64,000 nt of DNA, from positions 808,501 to 872,500 of the forward strand of contig NZ_JAFEJA010000002.1 of NCBI RefSeq assembly GCF_016919245.1, written 5' to 3'. This document shows, one piece after another, positions 40,262-49,510 of this stretch (positions are counted from its first letter, which is position 1; every line of letters begins with the position of its first letter). The notes below the pieces were generated by a model. It made no database searches, had not been told where the DNA came from, and was given only the letters and a program-made list of their open reading frames with translations. The stretch comes from Streptomyces zhihengii (lineage in GTDB: Bacteria; Actinomycetota; Actinomycetes; Streptomycetales; Streptomycetaceae). A program made the position numbers and the translations under genes.

Positions 40262-41587
40262 TCAGCCCGGCGAGGCGGGGGCCTCGGAGCCGGGCGCCGG
40301 CGCGTCGGAGCCCGCGGCCGGGCCCGACTGCTCGCCCGGCGGCGCCTCGGACGCCGGGGGCGGCTCCTCCGGCGCGGGGCTCTGCGGGGACTCCCCGGGC
40401 GGGGGCTCCGTCGCCGGGTCGGACGCCGGCCCGGACTCGTCGCCGGGACAGGCGGGACCGCCGCCGGGCGGACAGGAGGTGCCGGGCTCGGTGGTGCCGT
40501 CCGACGGCGTACGCGTGGACGGCGAGGGGGAGGTGCGCTCGGGAGGCTCGGTCTTCTTGTCGTGCTTGCCGGTGTCACCGGCCGGACGGGCGATCCACTC
40601 GCCGGTCTTCGGGTCGTACAGCACGAACGTCTCCACGTCGCGCGGGGCGGGCGTCACCACCACGACCTGCGAGGCGCGGTACCCGGGCCACGGTGTGCCG
40701 GTCTGCTTCGGCGTGGTCTCCTGGGCGACCGGCGGACGCAGCGGATTGCCGCAGGCGCAGCGCACCCGCGGGATGCCCCGGTCGTCGACGAGCACCGCGG
40801 TGCCCGACTGGAGGACGGCCTGGTACGGCGTCGCCTTCCCGTCCCGGAATCCGTGGTTGGTGACCCGGGTGTCCATCCGGAGCTGAACCGGCGTCAGGGA
40901 GCGCAGATACGCGGGCACCTGGCCCGGGGAGATGTCCTGGGCGCCGGCGAACGCCTCGTTCTTCGACGCGTCCGCCCCGAGCGACCGGATCTGCTGCTCG
41001 ACGTCACAGCTCGCGACGTCGCGGGTGCCGCCGTACAGGCCGGGCGTGGCACCGCCCACGGCGCGCGTGACGTTGGTGCCGGACGCGCTCGGAGCCGGCT
41101 TCGACGTGCTGGGCGCGGGCGCCGGCGACGTGTCCCGCGCGGTCGACCCGGTGAACGGATCGGGGCCGTCGGCGCTGGCGGCCTGGAGGAAGACCTCGCC
41201 CTCGGCGCTGCCGGAACCGCTGCCGCCGGGCCGGGTCAGCACCACCGTCACCACCACCGCCGCGACGACCAGCAGCGAGACGGCCGCGATCCTCGGCGCC
41301 GACCGCCACCACGGCCGCTGCGGACCGCCCGGGCCCCCGGCGTCCCCCGGCGGCCCCTCGTGCGCGCCACCGCTGCCGCCGGTCCCGCCGGGACCGCTCG
41401 GCGGTCCCGGCGGGGGACCGCCGGGGCCGGGGCCCTCCCCGGAACCGGACGGGGGCCCGCCGGAACCCGGCGCGGATCCTCCGGACGGGCCGGACGGCGG
41501 ACCTCCGGCGCCCGGCCGGGACGGCCCGGAGAGCGGACCCGACGGCGGGCCCGCGGGACGTCCGGATGACGGCGGTTCGATGCTCAT
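40262..41587 (-). CDS. Membrane-anchored DUF6777-type protein with Pro/Gly-rich ends
   Basis: A 441-aa protein: about 90 residues of Pro/Gly/Ser-rich cytosolic N-terminus, one membrane helix (about 98-116, IAAVSLLVVAAVVVTVVL), and an extracellular domain with FLQAASADGPDPFTGST, GGATPGLYGGTRDVASCDVEQQI and VPRVRCACGNPLRPPV, followed by an acidic Pro-rich tail of about 95 residues. The core matches the streptomycete family I know as DUF6777, of unknown function. Conserved cysteines in the outer domain may form disulfides. GGGAGG precedes the ATG by about 8 nt. It is divergent from the streptophobe gene and close to a Ser/Thr kinase cluster; similar proteins are often encoded near kinases. Confidence 0.85.
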   Translation of the reverse strand: MSIEPPSSGRPAGPPSGPLSGPSRPGAGGPPSGPSGGSAPGSGGPPSGSGEGPGPGGPPPGPPSGPGGTGGSGGAHEGPPGDAGGPGGPQRPWWRSAPRIAAVSLLVVAAVVVTVVLTRPGGSGSGSAEGEVFLQAASADGPDPFTGSTARDTSPAPAPSTSKPAPSASGTNVTRAVGGATPGLYGGTRDVASCDVEQQIRSLGADASKNEAFAGAQDISPGQVPAYLRSLTPVQLRMDTRVTNHGFRDGKATPYQAVLQSGTAVLVDDRGIPRVRCACGNPLRPPVAQETTPKQTGTPWPGYRASQVVVVTPAPRDVETFVLYDPKTGEWIARPAGDTGKHDKKTEPPERTSPSPSTRTPSDGTTEPGTSCPPGGGPACPGDESGPASDPATEPPPGESPQSPAPEEPPPASEAPPGEQSGPAAGSDAPAPGSEAPASPG

Positions 41588-41746: not shown

Positions 41747-43030
41747 GTGAGTCAGCACGCAACGGCCGAGCCGGCCCGTACCCCTGCGGCCCACGGCTGG
41801 CCGCAGGCCCTCGCCGCCGTCCTCGCCGGCTATCTGGCCATGATCGTCACCGCGGTGCTCGGGCTGTGGGCGTCCGGCGCCACCGGACTGCCCGACGGCG
41901 CCTTCCCCCAGGTCGTGGCCGCCGTCGTCGTCCTCGCCGTCGGCGGCTCCGTCGAGGTCGCGGGCGACGCGGGCGAGATCGCCCGGTCCGACGCCGCGCT
42001 CGACGCCCTGCCGCTCTCCGTGACCGTGGTCGGCGCCCTCGTGGCCGCCGCGCTGTTCCTGCGCCCGCTGCGCCGCCGCGCGGTGGCCGGCGCCCCCGAA
42101 CTCGCGGGCTGGGCCCTGCGCATCGCCGTGCTGTGGCTGGTCTGCCTGGGCGTGCTCGCCGCCGTCGCGCGGCACACCTTCACCATCGAGTTCGACGACC
42201 CCACCGGCGGCCTGATCGGCGACGTGTTCGGCGCGACACCGCGCGTCGGCTTCCGCACCGAGGTGCCCCAGACGCTCGTCATCGGCCTGCTGTGGCTGGC
42301 GGGCGTCCTCGCGCTCGCCCTGCTGGTCTCCCGGGGCGCACCCCTGCCACCGCGGCTGCTGCGCTTCCAGGAGGCCGTCCGCCCCGCCGCGTACGCGATG
42401 GTCGCGCTGCTGCTGGCGACCCTGGCCATCGGCGTCGTCATCGGCATCGTCGTCGCCGCCACCCGAGGGCACGCCGCCGAGACCCTCGCGGTGATCCTGC
42501 TCGGGCTGCCCAACCTGATGTGGCTCGCGCTGACCGTGGGCCTCGGCACCGGCTGGGAGGGCACCGTGAAGGGGCCCTTCGGCCTCCCGATGCCGCAGCT
42601 CCTGGACGAGGTGCTGCGCACCGGTGACCTCGCCACCCTCGACCTCGGCGCGCTGACCGAGCGCGACGCCCGCGCCTGGTGGCTGCTGGTGGTGGCCGCC
42701 CTCCTGGTGTTCGGCGCCGCCTTCCTCATGGCCGTGCGCTCGTCCGCCCGGGTGCGGCCCTGGCAGCACGCGCTGCGCATGGCCGTCGCCCTCGCGCTCA
42801 CCCTGACGGCGGTGTCCCTGCTCGCCCGGGTCTCCGCGCACTTCGGGCTCTCCCTCCTCGGCATCGGCGACCTCGGCGGCGACCTCGGGGGAGAGGTGTC
42901 GCTGCGGCCCATGCTCTGGCAGGCGTTCCTGCTGGGCGCCGGATGGGGGCTGGTGTCCGGCTTCCTCTGCGGTCTGCTGGCGACCCGCTTCCGCCACCAC
43001 GGCGAGGCGCCCCCGGCCCCGCGGCCCTGA
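41747..43030 (+). CDS. Streptophobe-family integral membrane protein
   Basis: A 427-aa protein with about nine hydrophobic helices. The segment VVVLAVGGSVEVAGDAGEI...ALDALPLSVTVVGALVAAALFLRPLRRR matches the signature region of the streptophobe family found in streptomycetes (name recalled from annotation practice). Function is unknown; a few members lie near kinase or DUF6777-like genes, as here. A -10-like hexamer 6 nt upstream supports GTG 41747. The gene converges on the kinase gene with only 17 bp between stops. Confidence 0.82.
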   Translation: MSQHATAEPARTPAAHGWPQALAAVLAGYLAMIVTAVLGLWASGATGLPDGAFPQVVAAVVVLAVGGSVEVAGDAGEIARSDAALDALPLSVTVVGALVAAALFLRPLRRRAVAGAPELAGWALRIAVLWLVCLGVLAAVARHTFTIEFDDPTGGLIGDVFGATPRVGFRTEVPQTLVIGLLWLAGVLALALLVSRGAPLPPRLLRFQEAVRPAAYAMVALLLATLAIGVVIGIVVAATRGHAAETLAVILLGLPNLMWLALTVGLGTGWEGTVKGPFGLPMPQLLDEVLRTGDLATLDLGALTERDARAWWLLVVAALLVFGAAFLMAVRSSARVRPWQHALRMAVALALTLTAVSLLARVSAHFGLSLLGIGDLGGDLGGEVSLRPMLWQAFLLGAGWGLVSGFLCGLLATRFRHHGEAPPAPRP

Positions 43031-43047: not shown

Positions 43048-44037
43048 CTACGGGCCCCGGAAGACCGGCCGCGCCCAGGCGGGCGGATCCGGCGGGGGCC
43101 CGGGCGCCCCCTCGGGCGCGGGCCCGCCGTCCACCCGGGTCGCCGTCCGCACCACCGGGCGGCCGCTCCCCGCCGCGCGCAGGGCGGCGACGAAGCGTCC
43201 GCACGAGTCGAAGCGGGACTCCGGGCTCTTCGCCAGCGCCCGCTCCATCACCGTGTCGACCGCCGCCGGCAGGTCGGAGCGCTGCGAGGTCAGCGCCGGC
43301 GCCGGATCGTACTGGTGGGCCCAGAGCAGGGCCATGTCGTCGTCGCGGCGGAACGGCGGGCCGCCGGTCAGGGTCTCGAAGACCACGCACCCCATGCTGT
43401 AGACGTCGCACCGCCCGTCGACGGGGCGGCCCGAGATCTGCTCGGGCGCCACGTAGTCCAGCGTCCCGACGAACTGGCCGACCGTGGTGAACCCGGTGAG
43501 CGAGAGGGACTTCTTGGTGAGGCCGAAGTCCGTCAGGTACACGTGCTCGGGATGGTCGCTGTCGGTGCCCTCCGCGACGAGGATGTTGCCGGGCTTCACA
43601 TCGCGGTGCACCAGGTCGTGCGCGTGGGCGGCGTCCAGCGCGGAGGCCACCTGGGCGGCGATGCGGCAGGCGGTGGCGAAGGGCAGCGGACCGCGGCGGT
43701 CCAGCAGCACGCGCAGGTCCTGGCCGGCGACGTACCGCATGGCGATGTAGAGCAGCCCCTCCGTCTCGCCGGCCTCGAAGACCGGCACGATGTGCGGATG
43801 GTCGATGGAGGCCGCCACTCGTGACTCGTGGGTGAAGCGCTTGCGGAAGGTGTCGTTGCGCGCCAGCTCCGGGGCGAGCAGCTTGAGTGCGACAGTGCGG
43901 TCGAGGCGCAGGTCGCGCGCCCGGTAGACGACGGCCATGCCGCCGCGCCCGATCTCCCGCTCGACGAGGTAGTCGGCGACCTGCTTCCCGACCAGCTCCG
44001 AGGGGCGGCCCCCCGGGAGCGAGCTGTCCGGCGGCAT
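43048..44037 (-). CDS. Ser/Thr protein kinase, soluble PknB/PknF-like
   Basis: A 329-aa Hanks-type kinase with all catalytic elements: glycine loop IGRGGMAVVYRA, ATP-binding Lys52 (VALKLL), catalytic HRDVKPGN (Asp146), DFG (Asp170), an activation segment with several Ser/Thr (KKSLSLTGFTTVGQFVGTLDYVAPEQ) and the RCDVYSMGCVVFE helix. After the kinase domain only about 45 Pro-rich residues remain; there are no membrane helix and no PASTA repeats, so it is cytosolic or peripherally attached. Its ATG overlaps the stop of the PT-x-VV repeat protein by 1 nt, and an FHA-domain ABC transporter gene precedes that, so kinase, repeat protein and phosphothreonine reader form one operon. Confidence 0.95.
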   Translation of the reverse strand: MPPDSSLPGGRPSELVGKQVADYLVEREIGRGGMAVVYRARDLRLDRTVALKLLAPELARNDTFRKRFTHESRVAASIDHPHIVPVFEAGETEGLLYIAMRYVAGQDLRVLLDRRGPLPFATACRIAAQVASALDAAHAHDLVHRDVKPGNILVAEGTDSDHPEHVYLTDFGLTKKSLSLTGFTTVGQFVGTLDYVAPEQISGRPVDGRCDVYSMGCVVFETLTGGPPFRRDDDMALLWAHQYDPAPALTSQRSDLPAAVDTVMERALAKSPESRFDSCGRFVAALRAAGSGRPVVRTATRVDGGPAPEGAPGPPPDPPAWARPVFRGP

Positions 44038-44942
44038 CAGTCCTCACCCTGCCGCACCGGCCCGCCCCGCCCGTCCACGACCTGGGTGGGCGGCGGCACG
44101 TCCGTGTCGGGGGTCGGGGTTTCCCGGTCGGGGACGACGCGGGTGGGTGGGGGTGGGTCGGTGTCGGGGGTCGGGGTTTCCCGGTCGGGGACGACGCGGG
44201 TGGGTGGGGGTGGGTCGGTGTCGGGGGTCGGGGTTTCCCGGTCGGGGACGACGCGGGTGGGTGGGGGTGCGTCGGTGTCCGGGGGTGGGGCCTCCCGGTC
44301 GGGGACGACGCGGGTGGGCGGCGGGGGGTCCTCGACGGCGGCGGGCCGGGGGCCGTCCGGCGGGCGGGGCGGGTCGGCGCCGGTGACCCGGGTCAGGTCC
44401 GCCGGGCCCGCCGCGCCGGGTGCCGCCGGTGCGGCGGGGGCACGGCCGGGCTGCACGGCGGGCTCCGCCGACGCGGCGAGCGTCGACAGCCGCCGCCCGT
44501 CGCAGTGCACCCACCGCTCGTGCTCGGCGTCGTACAGCCACACCGACTCGCCGTCGACGACCATCCCCACCTTCAGGCCGCGCGTCCGCAGCCGGAACGT
44601 CTCGCCGTCGAGGCTCCCGTCCGCGAGCTCCCCGGCGGCGCGCCGGTAGCGGCCGAGCGCCTCCTCGGCCCGCGCCAGCAGCGGCCGGGGGTCGGCGGTG
44701 CGGGCCGCCGGCTGTCCGGCGGCCGGCGGGTCCGCCGGGACCGAGACCAGCAGCCGGCCGTCCACCCAGGCCGACCAGCCGTTGACGCACAGCACCTGCG
44801 CCCAGTCGCCCCGGCGCTCCAGCAGCTGCACGGGCAGCAGCGGGTCCAGCGGGACCGTGGGCCGGGACGTGTCCGGGCCCTCCCAGGCCGGGAGTCCGGC
44901 CCGGGGGACGACATGCGTGGGGGCGAAGTCCCAGCTCGTCAC
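44037..44942 (-). CDS. SH3-like protein with five PT(R/Q)VV tandem repeats, probable kinase substrate/FHA ligand
   Basis: A 301-aa protein. Residues about 25-70 look like a bacterial SH3-type fold (LERRGDWAQVLCVNGWSAWVDGRLL); residues 85-160 hold a helix and a second beta segment (GESVWLYDAEHERWVHCDG). The C-terminal 90 residues contain five copies of a 19-residue repeat with the core PPPTRVVPDRE, placing threonines at 210, 229, 248, 267 and 286; the last copy reads PPPTQVV. A sixth match, PTHVV, occurs at Thr9. A Val three residues after the Thr is a known FHA-domain preference. Lying between the kinase and FHA-transporter genes, it is a good candidate for a phosphorylated scaffold. The GTG start, 7 nt after the transporter stop, lacks a strong ribosome site. 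Confidence 0.85.
   Translation of the reverse strand: MTSWDFAPTHVVPRAGLPAWEGPDTSRPTVPLDPLLPVQLLERRGDWAQVLCVNGWSAWVDGRLLVSVPADPPAAGQPAARTADPRPLLARAEEALGRYRRAAGELADGSLDGETFRLRTRGLKVGMVVDGESVWLYDAEHERWVHCDGRRLSTLAASAEPAVQPGRAPAAPAAPGAAGPADLTRVTGADPPRPPDGPRPAAVEDPPPPTRVVPDREAPPPDTDAPPPTRVVPDRETPTPDTDPPPPTRVVPDRETPTPDTDPPPPTRVVPDRETPTPDTDVPPPTQVVDGRGGPVRQGED
44079..44330. repeat. 57-bp coding tandem repeat, about 4.5 units
   Basis: The DNA encoding the PPPTRVV repeats has an exact 57-bp period. Three central units are almost identical over their whole length (each includes TTTCCCGGTCGGGGACGACG on the plus strand); the outer units have diverged. Confidence 0.9.
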
Positions 44943-44948
44943 AGGCGC

Positions 44949-47300
44949 CTACTTTCGCATGATCGCCGGTTCGTGCCGCCGCAGCAGCCGGGACACCAGG
45001 AAGCCGAAAAGGACCGAGAGCACCACCAGCATCCCCATGTCCAGCAGCCACACGGCCGCGGAGTGCTCGAAGAGGGCGTCGTCCGTCAGGTCGCCCGGCA
45101 CGATCCGGCCCAGCCCGATCGTGCCCGCCATCGCCCCCAGCGCCCACCGGGACGGCACGAACCACGCGAGCTGCTCGATCACCGCGACGCCGTCCAGCTT
45201 CAGCAGCGCGCCGCAGAAGACGACCTGGACGATCGCGAGGAGCACCAGCAGCGGCATGGTGACCTCCTCCTTGCGCACCAGGGCCGACACCAGCAGGCCG
45301 AGCATCATCGCGGTGAACGCCAGCAGCGCCACCGCGAGGGTGATCTCCACCAGCGGGGGCAGCAGGACGCCCTCGCCGCCCGGGGCGCCCAGATCGACAC
45401 CGGCGAGTGCCACCAGGGTCAGCACGACCGCCTGGAGCACCGTGATCGTGCCCAGCACCACGACCTTCGACATCAGATAGGCGGATCTGGACAGGCCGAC
45501 GGCTCTCTCCCGCTGGTAGATGACGCGTTCCTTGACCAGCTCCCGCACCGCGTTCGCCGCGCCCGTGAGGACACCGCCGACACACAGGATGAGCAGCGCG
45601 TTCATCGCCGTCTCCCGGTCGAGGGTGCTGCCGGCGAGGGCGCGGGCCATCGCCCCCATCACGAAGGGCAGCGCGATCATGATGGCGAGGAACGTCCGGT
45701 CGGCGCTCAGCGCGGCGGTGTACCGGCGCACCAGGGTGCGCAGTTGCGCTCCCCAGCTCTGCGCCTTCGGCGGCGGCGCGACGGGCCCGGCCCGGCCGGC
45801 GTCCTCGTGCGGCGGCTGCCGGGTCGCCCCGGCGATGTACCGCTCGTGGAACGGCGACGCGCGGTACGTCCCGGCCCAGTCGCGGTCCTTGTCGTTCTCG
45901 AACGCCTCGAACGCCTCGGGCCACTGCTCGAAGCCGAAGAAGGCCAGCGCGTCGTCCGGGGGACCGTAGTAGGCGATCCGCCCGCCCGGCGCCAGCATCA
46001 GCAGCCGGTCGCAGACGTCGAGGCTCAGCACGCTGTGGGTGACGACGACCACCGTGCGCCCGTCGTCGGCGAGACCGCGCAGCATGTGCATCACGGAGCG
46101 GTCCATGCCCGGGTCCAGGCCCGAGGTCGGCTCGTCCAGGAACAGCAGCGACGGTTTGGTCAGCAGTTCCAGCGCCACGCTGACGCGTTTGCGCTGACCG
46201 CCGGAGAGGCTGTGGATCGGCTGGTCGGCCCGCTGTTCCAGGCCGAGTTCGCGGATCACCTCCGCCACCCTCTCCCGGCGCTCCTCGCGCGCGGTGTCCT
46301 GCGGGAAGCGCAGTTCGGCCGCGTAGCCGAGGGCCCGGCGCACGGTGAGCTGGGCGTGCAGGATGTCGTCCTGGGGGACCAGGCCGATGCGCTGGCGCAG
46401 CTCCGCGTAGTCCCGGTAGAGGTCGCGGCCGTCGTACAGCACCGTGCCCTCGTCGGCGGGCCGCAGCCCCGTCAGGGAGTTGAGCAGCGTGGACTTGCCC
46501 GCGCCGCTCGGACCGACGACGGCGAGCAGGCACTTCTCGCCGACGGGGAACGACACGTGGTCCAGCAGGGTGCGCCGGCCCTTGTCCACGGAGACGGCCA
46601 GGCCCTGCACGTCGAGGGAGACCTCGCCGGTGTCGACGAACTCCTGGAGCTCGTCGCCGACCAGGCAGAACGCCGAGTGCCCGATGCCCACGATGTCGCC
46701 CTGCCCGAGCGGGGCGACATCCACGGGGCGGCCGTTGAGGTAGGTGCCGTTGTGGCTGCCGAGGTCGGCGATCTCGTAGCCGCCGGCGTCGAGGGAGCGC
46801 AGTTCGGCATGGTGGCGCGAGACGATCAGGTCGTCGACGACGAGGTCGTTGTCGGGCGAGCGGCCGATCCGCACCGTGCGCGCGGGCAGCGGCCGGACGC
46901 TGGTGGGCTGCCGGAAGGTGCCGGTGGCGGCGGGCATCGAGACCGCCGACGGCCGGGCCGGGGCGGCGGGCCGCGGGGGAGCGCGGCCGACGAGGGTGGC
47001 ACGTGGTCCGTCCGCGGGGTTCCCGAAGCGGATGACGCTGCCGGGGCCGATGTCCCAGGTGCGCACGCGGTGCCCTTCGGCGTAGGTGCCGTTGGTGCTG
47101 TCCTCGTCGTGCACCGTCCAGTGGCCGTCCTCGGCGTGCAGCACCGCGTGGTGCCAGGAGACCCGCGCGTCGTCGATCACGATGTCGCTGAGGGGATCGC
47201 GGCCGACGTGGTAGTCCCGGCTCGGACTCACGAGCGTGGAGCCTTGATCGGTCTCCACGAGGAGTTCGGGCGCCGTCGGCATGGGAGGCCGCTCTGCCAT
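44949..47300 (-). CDS. ABC transporter with two N-terminal FHA domains (Rv1747-like half-transporter)
   Basis: A 783-aa protein. FHA domain 1 spans about 28-95 (HVGRDPLSDIVIDDARVSWHHA ... DSTNGTYAEG) and FHA 2 about 142-215 (IGRSPDNDLVVDD, VSRHHAEL, SHNGTYLNG); both keep the Arg, Ser-x-x-His and Asn-Gly residues that bind phosphothreonine. The linker carries possible acceptor threonines. The ATPase follows: Walker A VGPSGAGKS at 262-270, signature HSLSGGQRKRVSVALELL, Walker B LLFLDEPTSGLD. An ABC2-type membrane domain with six helices occupies about 520-778. The layout is that of M. tuberculosis Rv1747, whose FHA domains are targets of the neighbouring kinase PknF. It is probably an exporter whose activity is set by Thr phosphorylation; the cargo is unknown. 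Confidence 0.94.
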   Translation of the reverse strand: MAERPPMPTAPELLVETDQGSTLVSPSRDYHVGRDPLSDIVIDDARVSWHHAVLHAEDGHWTVHDEDSTNGTYAEGHRVRTWDIGPGSVIRFGNPADGPRATLVGRAPPRPAAPARPSAVSMPAATGTFRQPTSVRPLPARTVRIGRSPDNDLVVDDLIVSRHHAELRSLDAGGYEIADLGSHNGTYLNGRPVDVAPLGQGDIVGIGHSAFCLVGDELQEFVDTGEVSLDVQGLAVSVDKGRRTLLDHVSFPVGEKCLLAVVGPSGAGKSTLLNSLTGLRPADEGTVLYDGRDLYRDYAELRQRIGLVPQDDILHAQLTVRRALGYAAELRFPQDTAREERRERVAEVIRELGLEQRADQPIHSLSGGQRKRVSVALELLTKPSLLFLDEPTSGLDPGMDRSVMHMLRGLADDGRTVVVVTHSVLSLDVCDRLLMLAPGGRIAYYGPPDDALAFFGFEQWPEAFEAFENDKDRDWAGTYRASPFHERYIAGATRQPPHEDAGRAGPVAPPPKAQSWGAQLRTLVRRYTAALSADRTFLAIMIALPFVMGAMARALAGSTLDRETAMNALLILCVGGVLTGAANAVRELVKERVIYQRERAVGLSRSAYLMSKVVVLGTITVLQAVVLTLVALAGVDLGAPGGEGVLLPPLVEITLAVALLAFTAMMLGLLVSALVRKEEVTMPLLVLLAIVQVVFCGALLKLDGVAVIEQLAWFVPSRWALGAMAGTIGLGRIVPGDLTDDALFEHSAAVWLLDMGMLVVLSVLFGFLVSRLLRRHEPAIMRK

Positions 47301-47535: not shown

Positions 47536-48609
47536 ATGAACGTCCCGGTTTCCGCGTGTCACTACACCATCGAAGTACCCGCCACACCTGAACGCGTGCC
47601 GCAGATCCGGCGCATCGTCGCCGCGCATCTGCGCCACTGGAACCTCGCGTCGCAGGTCGCCCCCGTCTGCGGGGCCCTGGACGAGCTCGTCGGCAACGTC
47701 GTCCGGCATGTCGAGGGCGACAAGACGTGCGTCGTCGAACTGCGCTGGACGGGCAGCCGGCTCAGCGCCTCCGTCGCGGACCGCGACCGGCGTCTGCCGC
47801 CGCTGCGCACCTCGGTGCCCAGCCGGGGCGGTCTCGCCAAGGTCGCGAAGCTGAGCGACAGTTGGGGCACCTGCGGCACCGACGACGGCAAGGTGATCTG
47901 GTTCACCAGGCGGGTGAAGCAGTCCGAGCGGATCGGGCGCGGACAGCGCGCGCCGAGGGTGCCCGCCGTCGAGTTCCGCCCGCTGCCCGCGGCGCTGGCC
48001 GCCGGCCCGCCGGCCGATCCGGCCCGCGCGGGGGCCCGGCCACTTAACCCGGCGGGGCCCGCCCACCGCCGGGGCCCCGCGTCCGCACCCCCGGCGCCGC
48101 CCCCGTCCCCCCCGGGACGGGGGCGGCGCCGGAGGTGTCCCGTGATGCCGTGCGGGGCGGCCGGGCCCGGCGCGCGCGGGGGCGGGGGCCGGCCGCCGTG
48201 GGGTGTCACGCGGCGCTCCTGTCGGGCCGCTCGGCGGGATGCAGCCCGGCCACCAGGCGGAAGAAGTCCGCCTCGTTGCCCGCGAGTCCGACGGCGCCGA
48301 GGGCGGCGTCGGCCTCCGCCATCGGCGCCGCCAGCATCGGCAGTGCCTGCGGGGCGGCCCGCGGATCGGCGAGTGCGGCTCTGGCGGTCTGGAGCAGACG
48401 CAGATACGCCTGCGCGGCGGCGCGTTCCGGTTCGTTCATCTCGCTCTTCCCCTCGTGAAGGTGTCGGACCGTCAAGCATCTCGCGCGCCTCTGACAACGC
48501 GCGGGAGCCGGGAGGGAAAGCGGCCGGCGGCCCGCCCCCGAGGGCGGGCCGCCGGCTGGTGCGACGAGCGGGGGAGCGCCCGAAGGCGCGCCCGGCTAGA
48601 AGACGCTGA
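47536..48609 (+). CDS. RsbW-like ATP-binding anti-sigma factor with an implausible C-terminal extension
   Basis: The first about 135 residues form a compact HATPase domain of the anti-sigma type (N-box [42 protein letters not shown]), followed by a typical tail ([16 protein letters not shown]). Beyond about residue 160 the frame stays open to 48609 and encodes only Arg/Pro/Gly-rich low-complexity sequence. That part contains a perfect 19-bp terminator hairpin (48091-48132), runs antisense across a small gene with a normal start and ribosome site, and just overlaps the protease gene. A TAA at 48045-48047 lies in another frame. A one-base loss before it, in evolution or in assembly, would explain the missing stop. 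The real protein is probably about 165-170 aa. Confidence 0.7.
48091..48132 (+). terminator. Perfect 19-bp hairpin inside the extended anti-sigma frame
   Basis: CCGGCGCCGCCCCCGTCCC (48091-48109) pairs with 48114-48132 around CCCC. Its position between the ATPase domain and the opposite-strand small gene suggests it is the natural terminator of both. Confidence 0.75.
48206..48439 (-). CDS. Small hypothetical protein, 77 aa, helical
   Basis: [20 protein letters not shown] and the following residues predict mostly amphipathic helices; [18 protein letters not shown] ends the protein. I do not recognise a family. ATG 48439 has GAGGGGAAG about 7 nt upstream, much better supported than a TTG at 48475. 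It is antisense to the doubtful extension of the anti-sigma gene and lies downstream of the protease gene on the same strand, separated from it by a terminator. Confidence 0.6.
   Translation of the reverse strand: MNEPERAAAQAYLRLLQTARAALADPRAAPQALPMLAAPMAEADAALGAVGLAGNEADFFRLVAGLHPAERPDRSAA
48524..48555 (-). terminator. Terminator of the protease gene
   Basis: CCGGCGGCCCGCCC (48524-48537) pairs with 48542-48555 around a 4-nt loop, 41 nt beyond the protease stop codon on the minus strand. Confidence 0.75.
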
Positions 48610-49510
48610 CGCCGTAGGCGCTGAGCGCCTCGGTGACAGGCTGGAAGAACGTGGTGCCGCCGGAGGAGCAGTTGCCGCTGCCGCCCGAGGTCAGGCCGAG
48701 CGCGGTGGTGCCGGAGAACAGCGGGCCGCCGCTGTCGCCGGGCTCGGCGCAGACGTTGGTCTGGATCATGCCGTAGACGACGTCGCCGCCGCCGTAGTTG
48801 ACGGTCGCGTTGAGGCCGGTGACGGTGCCGCCGTGCAGGCCCGTGGTCGAACCGCTGCGCTGGACCGACTGCCCGACACGGGCGTTGCCCGCGGTGGTGA
48901 TGTCCCGGTAGCTGCCGTTGTAGAGGTAGACCCGGCCGTCGGCGGCCGAGGCGTTGGCGTGGCGGATCAGGCCGTAGTCGTTCGTGGGGAAGCTCGATCC
49001 GGTCCGGGTGCCGAGGAGGGTGGTGGACGAGGAGTTGGTGTACCAGGTGCTGCCGATCGCGGTGCAGTGACCGGCGGTGAGGGCGTAGTAGGTGCTGCCG
49101 CTGCGGACGTTGAAGCCGAGCGAACAGCGGCCGCCGCCCGCGTAGATGGCCTGGCCGCCGGCGATGAGCTTGTTGAAGGTGCCCTCGGTCCGCTTGATCG
49201 TGAGGTCGCCCGCGCGGTCGCCGGCCTCCTTCTTGATCGTCGCGATCTCCGCGGCGGAGACGGTCGAGTCCACCGTCACGACGACCTTGCCGGTCGCCTG
49301 GTCGGTGTACCACGCGGTGCCCGCCACGTCGGCGTCGAGGACCGCCTCACCCGCCTGGGCGAGCTGCGCGACGGTGGCCTTCTGGGGGGCTGCCTCGGCC
49401 ATGGCCGAGGGGGCTGCAAGCGCGGAGGCGGCCACGAGTGCGGACGCGACGGCGATCAGCCGGGCGCCTCTGGTCATACCGCCGAGGGGGGACATGCGCT
49501 TGATCTTCAC
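48596..49510 (-). CDS. Secreted streptogrisin-like serine protease (S1, alpha-lytic protease type) with propeptide
   Basis: A 304-aa preproprotein: signal peptide to about residue 38 (ALAAPSAMA), an alpha-lytic-type propeptide (about 40-115; [27 protein letters not shown]), and a mature chymotrypsin-fold domain of about 187 residues. The triad is His in [12 protein letters not shown], Asp in NDYGLIRHA and Ser in [12 protein letters not shown]. Mature cysteine pairs (RCSLGF/GHC and VCAEPG/NCSSGG) match streptogrisins A/B. The propeptide acts as an intramolecular chaperone and inhibitor, and the enzyme digests extracellular protein. GGAGG sits about 5 nt before GTG 49510, and a TTGACA promoter lies upstream. 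Confidence 0.95.

Follow-up and report, generated by a model that had tools for sequence, protein, structure and literature searches.

The window analysed here, a stretch of 64,000 nucleotides from Streptomyces zhihengii (contig NZ_JAFEJA010000002.1, positions 808,501 to 872,500), carries on its minus strand a run of three genes forming one unit, which encode a kinase, a middle protein with a repeat-bearing tail and a double-FHA ABC exporter. In the tail of the middle protein, the PT(R/Q)VV sites probably serve as phosphothreonine (pThr) ligands for the exporter's FHA domains, with the co-encoded kinase as the likeliest writer, the exporter's own linker as a putative competitor in cis, and clustering or tethering of the exporter as a plausible outcome. 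Four observations form the basis of this proposal: the three genes constitute a unit, they are inherited together, the motif is conserved specifically at its threonine, and the FHA pockets of the exporter are intact. Judged by comparison of sequences, the motif array is selected and Thr-specific, and stands in a real, conserved unit. Within the proposal, the reading of pThr by FHA domains is the best supported part, while clustering, plausible as it is, represents the boldest step. The features concerned, in window coordinates, are the following.

43048..44037, minus strand: Ser/Thr protein kinase, 329 aa; its best NCBIfam match is of the PknB type, below the cut-off of that family
43138-43140, minus strand: codon of kinase Thr300, in TATRVD, in the C-terminal tail of the kinase
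44037..44942, minus strand: middle protein, 301 aa, GTG start; predicted SH3-like/helical/hairpin N-terminal domain and Pro-rich tail with five PPPT(R/Q)VV
44077..44318, minus strand: tandem repeat array with a 57-bp unit (19 aa per unit), 4.2 copies, 93% match
44313-44315, 44256-44258, 44199-44201, 44142-44144 and 44085-44087, minus strand: codons of the five repeat threonines
44916..44918, minus strand: codon of Thr9 of the middle protein, in the context F-A-PTHVV-P
44949..47300, minus strand: ABC exporter, 783 aa, in the order FHA1, short linker, FHA2, ATPase (ABC_tran), ABC-2 membrane domain (ABC2_membrane)
46680..46874, minus strand: FHA2 of the exporter, pocket residues Arg147, Ser161 and Asn184 present
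46902..46904, minus strand: codon of linker Thr133 (RQP-T-SVRPLP), between the FHA domains and just before FHA2
47022..47213, minus strand: FHA1 of the exporter, pocket residues Arg34, Ser48 and Asn70 present

An initial annotation, made from the letters of the window, had described the three genes with this strand and order, and the open reading frames (ORFs) of the window bear it out. Threonines at positions 9, 210, 229, 248, 267 and 286, with their motif contexts, proved exact on re-reading of the translation, as did the spacing of the five PPPT(R/Q)VV motifs at 19 residues. The 1-nt overlap between the kinase and middle genes also stands, whereas the distance from the exporter stop to the middle-gene start is 6 nt (TAG-GCGCCT-GTG) and not 7. 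No other ORF of the window of at least 60 aa contains two or more motifs, and a GC-ending codon pattern for P-T-(R/Q/H)-V-V has 14 matches in this genome, five in the array and nine as scattered singles, as compared with 9 for the reversed-pattern control.

Judged on the window alone, the array could be a recent duplication, given that its 57-bp units are 93% alike; that it exceeds chance is settled across species. In the genus survey 295 Streptomyces genomes were searched with the N-terminal 161 residues of the middle protein, which was matched in 163 of them; 144 distinct loci of these matching genomes were read, the window itself included, and 142 tails were counted after dropping one frame-shifted gene (L055) and one cut by a gap (L123). 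Of the 142 tails, 115 contain T(R/Q)(V/I/L)V, with 276 occurrences in all, against a mean of 0.585 and a maximum of 3 after shuffling, in a comparison where shuffles preserve composition only and related sequences are not independent. The residue preceding (R/Q)(V/I/L)V (n=281) is Thr in 276 cases, Ala in 2, and Ser, Pro and Arg in one each. Spacers between motifs vary among lineages with the core unchanged, so that the drift of spacers around a conserved PT(R/Q)VV core, for which the initial annotation had proposed a check, is what the lineages display. Moreover, among the 31 genes with at least three motifs more than one Thr codon is used in 24 and more than one Val codon in 24; the motif residues are thus held while their codons drift.

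The number of copies is highly variable. Strict motifs are absent in 27 of the 144 distinct loci, single in 63, paired in 23 and present in at least three copies in 31, and at least 8 changes in the state 'three or more motifs' are needed on the exporter tree (116 rows). A second set of 80 loci from named genomes, overlapping the first and including 77 complete tails, spans 0 to 14 copies, with the maximum in Streptomyces rubiginosohelvolus; of its three zero-copy loci, L171 has a gap in the assembly, L176 a tail that has degenerated and L227 the variant TRVI. Draft assemblies may have collapsed some repeats, which would affect these numbers.

The unit is conserved as such. Of the 119 longer Streptomyces loci in which adjacency to the middle gene was scored (the kinase by a distance rule), 109 have the kinase beside that gene, 117 have the exporter there and 108 have both. 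In a co-occurrence set of 150 genomes, middle protein and exporter ortholog are found together in 78 genomes, each alone in one, and neither in 70; an exporter ortholog was defined by E<=1e-100, where the sorted list falls from 4.3e-101 to 2.4e-69, and one weak middle-protein match (G139, 2e-4) was scored as present. The survey of co-occurrence suggested by the initial annotation returned a conserved unit. As for the two exceptions, the exporter-alone genome (G119) holds an exporter match broken across frames, behind which the middle gene and the end of the kinase are matched only weakly and over short lengths, and its unit looks decayed; the middle-alone genome (G049) keeps the kinase and has no exporter beside the middle gene.

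Beyond the genus, a class survey of 345 genomes returned 19 own-genus genomes (that of the window included) and one marginal match. The reading of the middle protein as Streptomyces-only that this survey would allow is ruled out by a family survey, in which the protein is present in 58 of 121 genomes and in 6 of 17 genera. Matching genomes from genera other than that of the window number 42, and all of them except G686 and G699 were read; of the resulting 40 loci, 37 have the adjacent kinase and 39 the exporter. Outside the family, 20 loci chosen by a match to the exporter membrane part contain no same-strand match to the kinase of the unit, a single one on the opposite strand, and no neighbouring gene with T(R/Q)VV repeats like those of the middle protein; motif-flagged ORFs there are only two, both in one locus (L264) and one of them the exporter, with one and two real sites.

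On the reader side, all 118 aligned exporters keep the Arg/Ser/Asn pocket of FHA2, and that of FHA1 is intact in 106-107 of them. The 12 deviants might be taken for exporters devoid of FHA1; this is ruled out for 9 of them, which have an FHA1 match upstream of the scripted start (with the pocket residues read for 4 of these), and the remaining three lie at a contig edge (2) or at a gap (1). The linker between the two domains is variable except for P-(T/S)-x-V just before FHA2, where the acceptor position is Thr in 112, Ser in 29, Ala in 1 and Asp in 1 of 143 sequences. FHA domains prefer pThr to phosphoserine, and a Ser allowed in the linker and not in the tail would be the contrast expected if only the tail had to be read by an FHA domain.

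On the kinase side, xT(R/Q/K)(V/I/L)x is found in 42 of 125 kinase tails, and 26 of the 43 matches are PT(R/Q)VD. A P-T-x-V core is thus common to all three proteins, which suggests a single kinase or reader preference. No hydrophobic run follows the catalytic domain in any of 125 kinases by a simple test, which is not a topology program. A separate feature of these tails is PP-x-WA-x(x)-(V/M), present within the last 45 residues of 116 of 127 complete kinases (window 43048-43140), and possibly a docking end.

The middle protein has no Pfam or NCBIfam match over cut-off and no match to a curated SH3 family. For its N-terminal domain, a model built on an 81-row alignment (pLDDT 75.8, pTM 0.48), which replaced a poor 20-row model (pLDDT 54.9), combines strands of SH3-like type with a helix and hairpins. 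Among the Foldseek matches shown SH3 folds predominate, with none reaching E<=1e-3, and the fold is weakly indicated to be SH3-like. In this model PTHVV sits at the edge of the SH3-like domain, with a two-residue bridge, and PTHV recurs in 39 of the 40 other-genus loci (PSHV in L304), those without a tail motif included. Thr9 may therefore be structural. The initial annotation had counted it as a sixth ligand; because PTHV persists where the tail motif is lost and lies at the domain edge, that role is not clear and Thr9 is left out of the count here.

The mechanism that we propose would run as follows. The PT(R/Q)VV sites of the tail would be phosphorylated on Thr, the neighbouring kinase being the likeliest writer, and would then be read by the FHA domains of the exporter. 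Through the SH3-like N-terminal domain the tail would be held to some partner, which might be the kinase, the membrane or a cue from the envelope, and the phosphorylated tail would engage the FHA domains of one or several exporters. Such engagement could tether and cluster the exporters or relieve them from their own linker, whose P-(T/S)-x-V site before FHA2 would act as a cis competitor, as in the linker of Rv1747 and in GarA/OdhI, and the number of motif copies would set the avidity. In its full form, which we put forward tentatively as falling short of probable, this would be a trans-acting pThr scaffold tunable by copy number: the kinase decorates up to 14 sites, the tail gathers double-FHA exporters into membrane clusters, the linker competes in cis, and evolution tunes the number of repeats.

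Several observations weigh against this interpretation. Multivalency is not general, as no more than one strict motif is present in 90 of the 144 distinct loci. The tail motif is absent throughout a Streptomyces clade of 9 loci (L036, L041, L042, L078, L115, L118, L129, L146 and L149), where the genes are mostly kept, and in 36 of the 40 other-genus loci, where kinase and exporter are mostly kept; outside the genus of the window, tail T(R/Q)VV is found in 4 loci (L284-L287), all of genus g132. From these distributions the core of the system would be the kinase, the SH3-like protein and the exporter, and the PT(R/Q)VV array is best read as a later elaboration of particular lineages. The initial annotation had pointed to orthologs without the Thr as adverse: where the motif is kept its Thr is nearly always kept as well (276/281), and in the 9-locus clade and the 36 other-genus loci the array itself is missing. 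Furthermore, 10 loci have no adjacent kinase (one of them cut by a contig edge), and by the same relaxed pattern that detects the motif in 92 of 109 loci with an adjacent kinase it is still present in 6 of these (6 of the 9 uncut), so the co-encoded kinase is not strictly required. Finally, Ser at Thr9, Ser in the linker and lack of a tail motif coincide in the raw table in 9 loci, which on trees are mostly one clade; coupled loss of Thr at Thr9 and in the linker is seen in 2 of 5 independent pairs on the tree (2 of 3 in an earlier tree), which is not significant, and a joint loss of these two threonines and the tail motif is suggestive only. The same clade offers a natural comparison group.

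The flanks of the motif bear on an alternative in which the tail motif is a short linear motif independent of phosphorylation, on which, for instance, the kinase or some other folded domain encoded at the locus would dock. Pro at -1 (238/276), Glu at -2 (162/276), Arg or Gln at +1 (276/289) and Val at +3 (276 of 306 after T(R/Q)(V/I/L)) impose more constraint than a bare FHA ligand needs, and several other-genus tails (among L288-L323) terminate in PTR or PTQ with no VV. A ratio of Thr to Ser of 276:1 is however hard to explain without a pThr reader, and the neighbouring genes encode precisely a Ser/Thr kinase and pThr readers, for which reasons we regard a docking motif as unlikely. The probability is lower again that the sites are pThr ligands of another FHA protein of the cell and the exporter a mere neighbour. 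Indeed, this genome has 10 FHA matches, and of the 8 that do not belong to this exporter two fall on a paralog, a second double-FHA exporter found in most Streptomyces genomes searched and about 50% identical in the membrane part; yet the middle protein is inherited almost perfectly with this exporter, whereas most genomes devoid of the middle protein have the paralog as well (the exporter membrane part is matched at E<=1e-30 in 148 of the 150 genomes).

The 93% match of the 57-bp unit in the window and a copy number quick to vary would also suit functionless slippage of GC-rich DNA. The cross-species data already contradict it: the same core stands on differing spacers in many lineages, its codons vary synonymously, and exactly one copy is kept in 63 of the 144 distinct loci, all of which makes slippage very improbable. 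The same 63 loci speak for a one-to-one arrangement, in which a single pThr motif gates one exporter and further copies raise the local concentration with no clustering. This variant is compatible with the reading of pThr by FHA domains, and we hold it to be possible but doubtful, considering that repeated expansions to 3-14 copies suggest that avidity matters somewhere. Taken as a whole, the phosphothreonine-controlled exporter with a multivalent scaffold that the initial annotation had envisaged is partly supported: the three-gene unit, the intact FHA pockets, the Thr-specific motif on differing spacers and a published TRVV core speak for it, and the array is not universal.

Two further genes are kept neighbours of the unit in the longer loci.

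41747..43030, plus strand: streptophobe-family protein, convergent neighbour, matched in 109/119 loci
40262..41560, minus strand: DUF6777 protein, on the same strand as the unit, with one hydrophobic stretch by eye and an unrefined start, matched in 104/119 loci

No paper on the word 'streptophobe' was found in open-licence PMC. Upstream of the unit, a HATPase gene (47536-48000, plus strand) and a gene for a trypsin-like protease (48596-49510, minus strand) are each matched in only 3 of 119 loci, though some stretches may stop short of the place of the protease gene.

If the proposal is right, reader and phospho-ligand, which in Rv1747 belong to one chain, have been split between two genes, and the number of repeats is a dial that varies by species, thus providing a natural series for the study of valence in FHA signalling and transporter clustering. 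It would also give a candidate function to an unnamed protein of 163 of 295 Streptomyces genomes and to the kinase-exporter unit. The linker P-(T/S)-x-V, the related site in the kinase tail and the pTRVV ligand of Rv2623 were not mentioned in the initial annotation.

The closest known system is that of Rv1747 and PknF in Mycobacterium tuberculosis, which likewise consists of a double-FHA ABC-2 type exporter and an adjacent Ser/Thr kinase. FHA1 of the unit matches by sequence the solved FHA1 of Rv1747 (6ccd), FHA2 matches the FHA of GarA and FHA2 of Rv1747 (6cah), and the P-(T/S)-x-V site conserved in the linker is a candidate phosphoacceptor. PknF is membrane-bound, unlike what the Streptomyces kinase tails, with no hydrophobic run, would suggest; the linker of the Streptomyces exporter looks short beside that of Rv1747; and a separate third protein bears the Thr array. 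According to a review, Rv1747 1-310 condenses more readily once phosphorylated by PknF, an effect that PstP reverses, and nanoclusters of Rv1747 have been reported (PMC9312465).

A ligand acting in trans on this kind of FHA domain is represented by Rv2623, in which Thr237 was mapped as phosphorylated on protein treated with kinase in vitro, and the substitution T237A reduces, without abolishing, binding to FHA I of Rv1747, FHA II showing no binding (PMC5549992). The motif pTRVV is given there in a docking figure, the fit of pTRVV to the FHA domain being a docking model (PMC5549992). By analogy, the array uses the core reported for this trans ligand; Rv2623 differs in being a folded universal stress protein with one mapped site and no repeat tail. 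The initial annotation knew of no description of a separate repeat scaffold in such a system: no paper on this Streptomyces three-gene unit was found in open-licence PMC, which agrees with it, while a trans partner of Rv1747 FHA I bearing pTRVV at one mapped site has been published.

GarA/OdhI provides a parallel for the linker, the FHA2 of the unit being nearest to the FHA of GarA by sequence; its acceptor is N-terminal to the FHA domain in a peptide ending VETTSVFRADFL (PMC8546545), which resembles RQPTSVRPLP. GarA is a metabolic regulator and not a transporter (PMC12321487), and the exporter of the unit differs in having two FHA domains and no ETTS motif in its linker. Within Streptomyces, the paralog exporter, which in the genome of the window lies at G000:C1 near 6395049, has the same domain order and a conserved SPTTF in the linker before FHA2. 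Its linker, read in 12 loci (L251-L262), is often Gln/Pro-rich and carries GDRSPTTFH just before FHA2 in 11 of 11 full-length copies; unlike the unit, none of the 12 loci has a match to the kinase. On these comparisons the unit looks like a variation on the PknF/Rv1747 system, to which it adds a separate protein bearing an array of threonines.

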